A stretch of DNA of 64,000 nucleotides from Glandiceps talaboti (taxonomy: Eukaryota > Hemichordata > Enteropneusta > Spengelidae), in NCBI RefSeq assembly GCF_964340395.1, contig NC_135556.1, forward strand, positions 7,403,501 to 7,467,500, read 5' to 3'. Below are positions 520 to 63,645 of this stretch, in pieces; position 1 is the first letter of the stretch, and every line of letters starts with the position of its first letter. The notes beneath the pieces are model-generated. The model worked only from the letters and a program-made list of their open reading frames with translations, was not told the origin of the DNA and made no database searches. Position numbers and translations under genes: made by a program.

Positions 520-6710
<6,191 letters not shown>

Positions 6711-7846: not shown

Positions 7847-32239
<24,393 letters not shown>

Positions 32240-38801: not shown

Positions 38802-51975
<13,174 letters not shown>

Positions 51976-54590: not shown

Positions 54591-54641
54591 TTCCAAACAC
54601 AGACCCTCCACCAACGTTGGTGGAGGGTCTATGTTCCAAAC
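54591..54641. mobile_element. Tiny palindromic insertion, copy 2
   Basis: A perfect 30-bp palindrome at 54601-54630 (left half AGACCCTCCACCAAC) lies within a 35-bp insert, flanked by exact 8-bp repeats TTCCAAAC (54591-54598 and 54634-54641). Confidence 0.7.

Positions 54642-58552: not shown

Positions 58553-63645
<5,093 letters not shown>

Follow-up and report, generated by a model that had tools for sequence, protein, structure and literature searches.

Closest described systems

Footprints of the P-element type are known from laboratory excisions, and footprints on a genome scale are known for plant transposons (PMC4423477). The Drosophila P transposase makes cuts staggered by 17 nt, one strand being cut at the edge of the element and the other inside it (PMC7776569). 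After excision of P{wa} the 17-nt tails of both terminal repeats stay at the donor site, and in the repair products two tips, the second inverted, meet at filler or microhomology between two duplications (PMC2895639). Where Drosophila P is excised by the zebrafish enzyme, the joints have larger flanking deletions (PMC10983969). Galileo, a member of the P superfamily in Drosophila, makes 7-bp duplications with consensus GTAGTAC (PMC2775673).

Our literature search of open-licence papers found no report of natural genome-wide scars of the P type. Here a footprint type that is classic in the laboratory appears to be preserved, like fossils, throughout the genome of an animal. We describe five short inserts, each of which is almost certainly the healed donor site, or scar, of a cut-and-paste transposon of the P superfamily.

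Inserts in the window

The window, by which we mean the whole 64,000-nucleotide stretch of Glandiceps talaboti DNA under analysis (C9:7403501-7467500), belongs to a genome that was examined over 590.4 Mb in 47 contigs. It also holds a RET-like kinase exon, V-set immunoglobulin exons and a PAN domain, a 487-bp unit in two tandem copies that are 97% alike (21039-22004), and a 45-bp tandem array of 12.6 copies (41715-42281) overlapping an open frame, the start of which we take to be TMEM165-like. The inserts, none with an assigned strand, and the reference copy discussed below are as follows.

Scar 1: 2910..2951, unstranded; insert 2917-2944 (28 bp), flanks GTTTAAT/GTTTAAT, exact
Scar 2: 54591..54640, unstranded; insert 54598-54633 (36 bp), flanks TTCCAAA/TTCCAAA, exact
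Scar 3: 59037..59081, unstranded; insert 59044-59074 (31 bp), flanks CTGATAG/CTGATAG, exact
Scar 4: 60378..60413, unstranded; insert 60385-60406 (22 bp), flanks ACTAGAA/ATTAGAA, one mismatch
Scar 5: 62318..62363, unstranded; insert 62325-62356 (32 bp), flanks CTATACT/CTATAAT, one mismatch
Empty-site reference: 9421..9510, + strand; uninterrupted copy of the dispersed repeat that is split by scar 4

All five inserts (22-36 bp) have the ends CAYAGAC...GTCTRTG, with two departures, at the final base of scar 3 and at an inner base of scar 4, and all lie between 7-bp duplications, three exact and two with one mismatch. The first-pass annotation had listed four palindromic insertions of 23-35 bp with target duplications of 6-8 bp. 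All four are present, with limits corrected to those given above, and their palindromic nature and the duplications stand; scar 5, absent from that list, makes a fifth member, the size range is now that measured here, and the length common to all the duplications is 7 bp. An 8-bp reading is possible at 54591, as TTCCAAAC, if the boundary is shifted by one base, and at the other window sites an exact 8-bp duplication is impossible.

Three scars are matched by the terminal repeats of elements described in the next section, from whose contigs the families are named. In scar 2 the C5/C24-family terminal repeat accounts for 18 + 18 nt (at most one mismatch), both tips being of full length, and the arms of scar 1 fit the C19-family repeat over 11 nt on the left and 16 nt on the right (at most one mismatch). 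Scar 4 has ends of the C5 type truncated to 13 and 11 nt (at most one mismatch), which overlap. The end of scar 3 is CACAGACAACTAACTAG, a type that recurs elsewhere in the genome, and scar 5 has dissimilar ends, CACAGACAAGTATATC and CACAGACAATTAAGAA; a comparable pair is present at G000:C1:6922156, as would be expected if these were the two ends of one element.

A search for at least 13 of the 14 end letters of the CAYAGAC type with a 7-bp duplication (at most one mismatch) gave 5 sites in the window and 0 in 50 Markov-1 shuffles. At the same threshold duplication lengths of 4, 5, 6, 8, 9 and 10 scored 0 each, so that 7 bp alone scores. A stricter scan, for perfect 7-nt arms and exact duplications, catches 2 of the 4 sites first noted.

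Scar 4 interrupts a dispersed repeat, and the uninterrupted copy that had been noted at 9461-9470 was confirmed. In the genome 40 scored places, the window copy included, align across the site with no room for an insert; these are the best-scoring among 1,254 first-look candidates, a selection that favours uninterrupted copies. The uninterrupted copies bear out the earlier reading of an insertion, and a conserved RNA or DNA hairpin was dropped as an explanation because empty copies exist.

Parental elements of the P superfamily

Profile searches of the genome found 5 places with PF21788 (the P-type GTP-binding insertion domain, GBD) and 13 with PF21787 (RNase H). At the PF21788 places on C19 and C14 the copies are 99.5-99.8% identical, and the shared sequence halts exactly at CATAGAC ends.

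C19 element: C19:16466610-16476276, 9,667 bp; GTTACTC on both sides
C14 element: C14:24543531-24552984, 9,454 bp; ATTATAC on both sides
C24 element: C24:18349274-18358452, 9,179 bp; GTTACAT on both sides, 37-bp terminal repeat CATAGACCCTACACCAACAGGATACGCAACTGCGGCA
Shorter copies: G000:C4:11822780, C10:224013, C12:23519678, C20:1115655 and C23:10394007, 1.58-1.60 kb; ends only read

The terminal repeat is a perfect 36 bp in C19, starting CATAGACAGTGGAGGGG, and C14 has the same ends. The CATAGAC-type ends are present at 4 of the 7 RNase H places for which flanks were read (C19, C14, C24 and C5); no terminal-repeat pair was found at those on C15, C23 and C13 (loci L042-L044) in the 9-10 kb of flanks read, and no CAYAGAC terminal-repeat pair was recognised at the GBD place on C1 (locus L020). 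The C19 copy has transposase domains RNaseH_N (PF21787, 2e-23), GBD (PF21788, 6.7e-8) and RNaseH_C (PF21789, 2.7e-7). The C24 element has RNaseH_N (2.2e-25) and RNaseH_C (7e-8), with a GBD match at C24:18353643 (E 2.8e-5) that includes one internal stop. Over 705 positions the two transposase frames share 45% identity. The parental elements combine terminal inverted repeats starting with CA and a 7-bp duplication, exact in the three full copies (C19, C14 and C24), as expected of the P superfamily, in which duplications are 7 or 8 bp long. PF12017 (Tnp_P_element) has zero matches here and also in the control genomes, no THAP domain was seen in the longer open frames of C19 and C24 that were scanned, and a PDB sequence search with the C19 transposase frame gave no matches.

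Parent and scar share their ends and the length of the duplication, and this holds for two end types. The P-domain places examined include no parent of a CACAGAC type (scars 3 and 5), and for that reason P-type excision is put forward as the probable cause of these two from their anatomy, which is the same as that of the other scars.

The five 1.6-kb copies have ends of the C24 type, with the 7-bp duplication exact in 4 of 5 and with at most one mismatch in 5 of 5, and a 37-bp terminal repeat in the best-preserved copy; they are presumably a non-autonomous family. A 4.1-kb element with CATAGAC-type ends and CCCATAT/CCCATAC flanks (L041:2858-6981; L041/L046 to joined position 11087) is nested in the C5 relative of the C24 P-like element, which is 95-98% identical to it in long blocks. 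The C19 and C14 elements themselves hold a palindrome of another end type, CATAGACAATG...GTCTATG, at joined coordinate 12976 (L027/L025); its 7-mer flanks have two mismatches, and it is possibly a scar inside an element.

Both 9-kb families have a second open frame, on the strand opposite to the transposase and convergent with it: L025:1248-2279 (+), 344 aa, and L040:3161-4198 (+), 346 aa. The two are 39% identical over 332 positions (E 1e-81), and we read the pair as a predicted conserved second gene of the P-like elements here. Pfam is blank for both frames up to E = 1, and PDB is blank up to E = 0.1 for the frame of the C24 element.

Arm lengths and the proposed excision

Each insert consists of the two terminal-repeat tips in a head-to-head joint, often with trimming of the tips. 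In the C19 family (84 places with 168 arms, among the matches listed) no arm is longer than 20 nt and 13 of the 168 are exactly 20, so that arms end by 20 nt although the terminal repeat extends to 36; genome-wide there are 7 strand-hits of at least 21 nt, of which 3 reach 22-23 nt, beside 275 + 278 for the pattern anchored in 13 nt. Independent sites, each with its own duplication, show the complete product of 20 + 20 nt (L058, one mismatch; L059, exact). In the C5/C24 family (90 places with 180 arms, among the matches listed) there are 20 arms of 18 nt, 3 of 19 and 2 of 21, and none longer; the extra letters of the two 21-nt arms also match the opposite end. These counts treat overlapping rows separately (C5:16991319/16991326 in the C19 set; C1:4840355/4840369 and C2:5605584/5605596 in the C5/C24 set), and the patterns used detect arms of at most about 45-50 nt. 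The inserts share the features of P-type excision footprints: tips from both terminal repeats, limited to a fixed maximal length, are kept between target duplications and are joined with microhomology or filler. From the joints we take the limits of 18 and 20 nt to be the probable cut positions of the transposases.

The following course of events would give the structures seen. An element would insert and duplicate 7 bp. Its transposase would later make staggered cuts, one strand being opened at the outer edge and the other 18 or 20 nt into the terminal repeat. Once the element had departed, a single-stranded tip of each terminal repeat would remain at the donor site. End joining would trim these tips, align them at microhomologies or fill them in, and seal the break. 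The product would be a palindrome of up to 36-40 bp, sometimes with filler, between two 7-bp duplications, and its palindromic form would follow from the two tips being inverted copies of one terminal-repeat sequence. The process would have taken place in the germ line, thousands of times.

Abundance in the genome

The pattern CATAGAC-N0-30-GTCTATG has 3,706 places in the genome against 198 for the reversed-pattern control, and CACAGAC-N0-30-GTCTGTG has 1,396 against 117. Patterns anchored in longer tips gave 275 + 278 = 553 strand-hits for the C19 type (13 nt) and 606 + 663 = 1,269 for the C5/C24 type (15 nt), with a control of 0 in both cases. The check proposed in the first-pass annotation, of CAYAGAC hairpins against shuffled sequence, thus finds an excess, in the window against 50 shuffles and in the genome against the reversed pattern. 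The five scars come from one chosen window and are not to be scaled up genome-wide.

The 7-bp duplication was followed in three sets of fetched scars, taken from the tops of lists or by hand. In the first set it was exact at 10 of 19 sites and had at most one mismatch at 15 of 19, figures that become 11 and 16 when L019, which had been clipped by the search pattern and is exact, is read to its real end; the poorest 3 of the 19 have 2-3 mismatches. In the second set (L058-L066) it was exact at 5 of 9 and within one mismatch at 9 of 9, and in the third at 9 of 10 and 10 of 10; the second was selected for long arms and the ten of the third were hand-picked from contig C1, so that none is random. 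Seven-base matches at the fetched loci numbered 59, of which 28 belong to one 30-bp satellite (L013/L014) and one, L012:781, is chance-like; both were excluded, and most of the remaining matches are counted once per strand. Some of the fetched scar loci are remnants of one side only, others have joints that overlap or contain filler, and one is a composite with repeated tips.

One 24-bp form recurs, at 12 of the 90 places among the C5/C24-type matches listed, and a few other short forms there recur 2-4 times each. Its 11 fetched copies are a single scar carried in another repeat, 97-100% identical over 624 bp and with the same duplication, and L006 is very probably another copy of it. This young dispersed repeat (L047-L057) bears its one fixed scar, with duplication GTAAAAC, as a built-in marker of its spread. 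At G000:C2:3028007-3028617 there is a tandem array with a scar-like palindrome at multiples of 53 bp, six places among the matches listed. The C5/C24 counts are therefore counts of places and not of events, as 12 of the 90 are the 24-bp form, its 11 fetched copies being one copied scar, and six are a tandem array.

Somatic excision in the sequenced tissue was rejected: a scar has been copied within another repeat, at 97-100% identity, and many duplications are mismatched, both of which point to a germ-line age for the scars.

Alternative explanations

Chance hairpins next to chance repeats might be suggested when the window is scanned without the motif (8-nt arms with at most one mismatch and any ends, compared with four shuffles), since the result barely exceeds the shuffles: 2 against 0, 0, 0 and 0 with exact 7-bp duplications, and 7, of which 4 are the CAYAGAC inserts, against 3, 3, 0 and 5 with at most one mismatch. 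The signal in the window thus sits mainly in the end motif, and the motif-based counts in window and genome, together with the zero controls of the anchored patterns, refute chance, the probability of which we take to be practically nil. The first-pass annotation had offered ends-only relics of a hAT-like transposon, or fill-in products of its breakage. Elements of the hAT type likewise start with CA, and they commonly leave small footprints. However hAT excision leaves palindromes of the flanks and is not known to leave long terminal-repeat tips. The duplication here is 7 bp, in contrast to the 8 bp of hAT, and none of the 38 fetched scars (19 + 9 + 10) permits 8 bp directly at the CA/TG ends with fewer than 3 mismatches. 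The parents with these ends carry TNP-like domains, with no hAT domain in the open frames scanned in the C19 and C24 elements. With the duplication length wrong for it, and the transposase too in the parents found, a hAT origin is highly improbable and was dropped, while the idea of a breakage product is retained in the tip-to-tip joints.

The 22-40-bp palindromes could also be mobile units that transposed themselves as ends-only MITEs, having the inverted repeats and duplications of transposons and, in the 24-bp form, a sequence found at 12 of the 90 places among the matches listed. That form is refuted as a mobile unit, being one scar copied within a larger repeat. Joints differ widely between sites, which the copying of a unit would not yield, one-sided remnants exist, and the arms mostly finish by 18 or 20 nt within a longer terminal repeat; the inserts do not show the shared body sequence or the descent of copies from one another by which MITEs are recognised, and we find such units very hard to credit. 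Internally deleted derivatives of P elements are known (PMC7776569), and if replication slippage or an interrupted gap repair had removed almost all of the interior of P-like elements, the outer tips and the duplication would be kept. The ends of such deletions should however scatter through the terminal repeat and past nucleotide 20, whereas the arms halt sharply at 20 and 18 with few exceptions, an argument that covers arms up to about 45-50 nt. We regard internal deletion as very unlikely and return to excision of P-type elements as the favoured origin of the scars.

Scars and resident elements

In the genome 11 places match the first 23 nt of the C19 repeat (4 ends of full copies, 2 scars, 4 ends running into element sequence and 1 diverging after 23 nt) and 31 match the first 28 nt of the C5/C24 repeat. 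Scars outnumber resident ends by roughly tens to one. The ratio is a rough one because more old copies are missed by the resident patterns, which are longer, a palindromic scar is counted on both strands, and some scars ride in other repeats. The genome thus appears to carry thousands of P-like excision scars, far above the resident elements, and these therefore record jumps whose elements are gone.

On balance we lean towards the view that P-like transposons here live by net loss, with thousands of germ-line jumps of which mostly scars are left, at tens to one over resident ends, with cut offsets of 18 and 20 nt that differ between the families and from the 17 nt of Drosophila, and with the convergent conserved second gene of both 9-kb families perhaps taking part in an excision-biased cycle.

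Scars of this kind would allow the cut sites of a transposase to be read from sequence alone, and would show how germ-line end joining behaves with regard to microhomology and filler and how often transposons depart rather than remain. Vanished element families could remain recognisable from the ends kept in their scars. Being very short and variable, the scars may escape ordinary repeat annotation, so that past P-like activity may be undercounted.

Comparison with known systems

With regard to Drosophila, the layout of tips and duplications is identical to that of the P{wa} footprints (PMC2895639), but those have 17-nt tips and 8-bp duplications and come from induced laboratory excisions, whereas here the tips are 18 or 20 nt, the duplications 7 bp and many scars lie in one assembled genome. 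Galileo shares with the elements here the P superfamily, a kinship compared by Pfam domains only, and the 7-bp duplication, and its consensus GTAGTAC (PMC2775673) is similar to GTTNAAC, the symmetrised form at 19 sites here; a weak test for internal pairing in the 19 duplications gave p of about 0.11, 0.015 and 0.61 for the three position pairs. In contrast the terminal repeats of Galileo are long and internally repetitive, 575-610 bp in two copies (PMC2775673), and those here are 36-37 bp.

The zebrafish element Pdre2 / THAP9 is also P-like with short terminal repeats starting CATA, but it differs in having a 13-bp terminal repeat, CATACCTGTCAAC, and 8-bp duplications (PMC10983969). In rice, as here, excision scars with filler have been read off assembled genomes (PMC4423477). 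However the rice footprints are those of plant Mariner, Harbinger and Mutator elements, with 94 putative excisions from a comparison of two species, and the part of that paper drawn on gives no fixed tips of 18 or 20 nt such as those that mark the scars described here.
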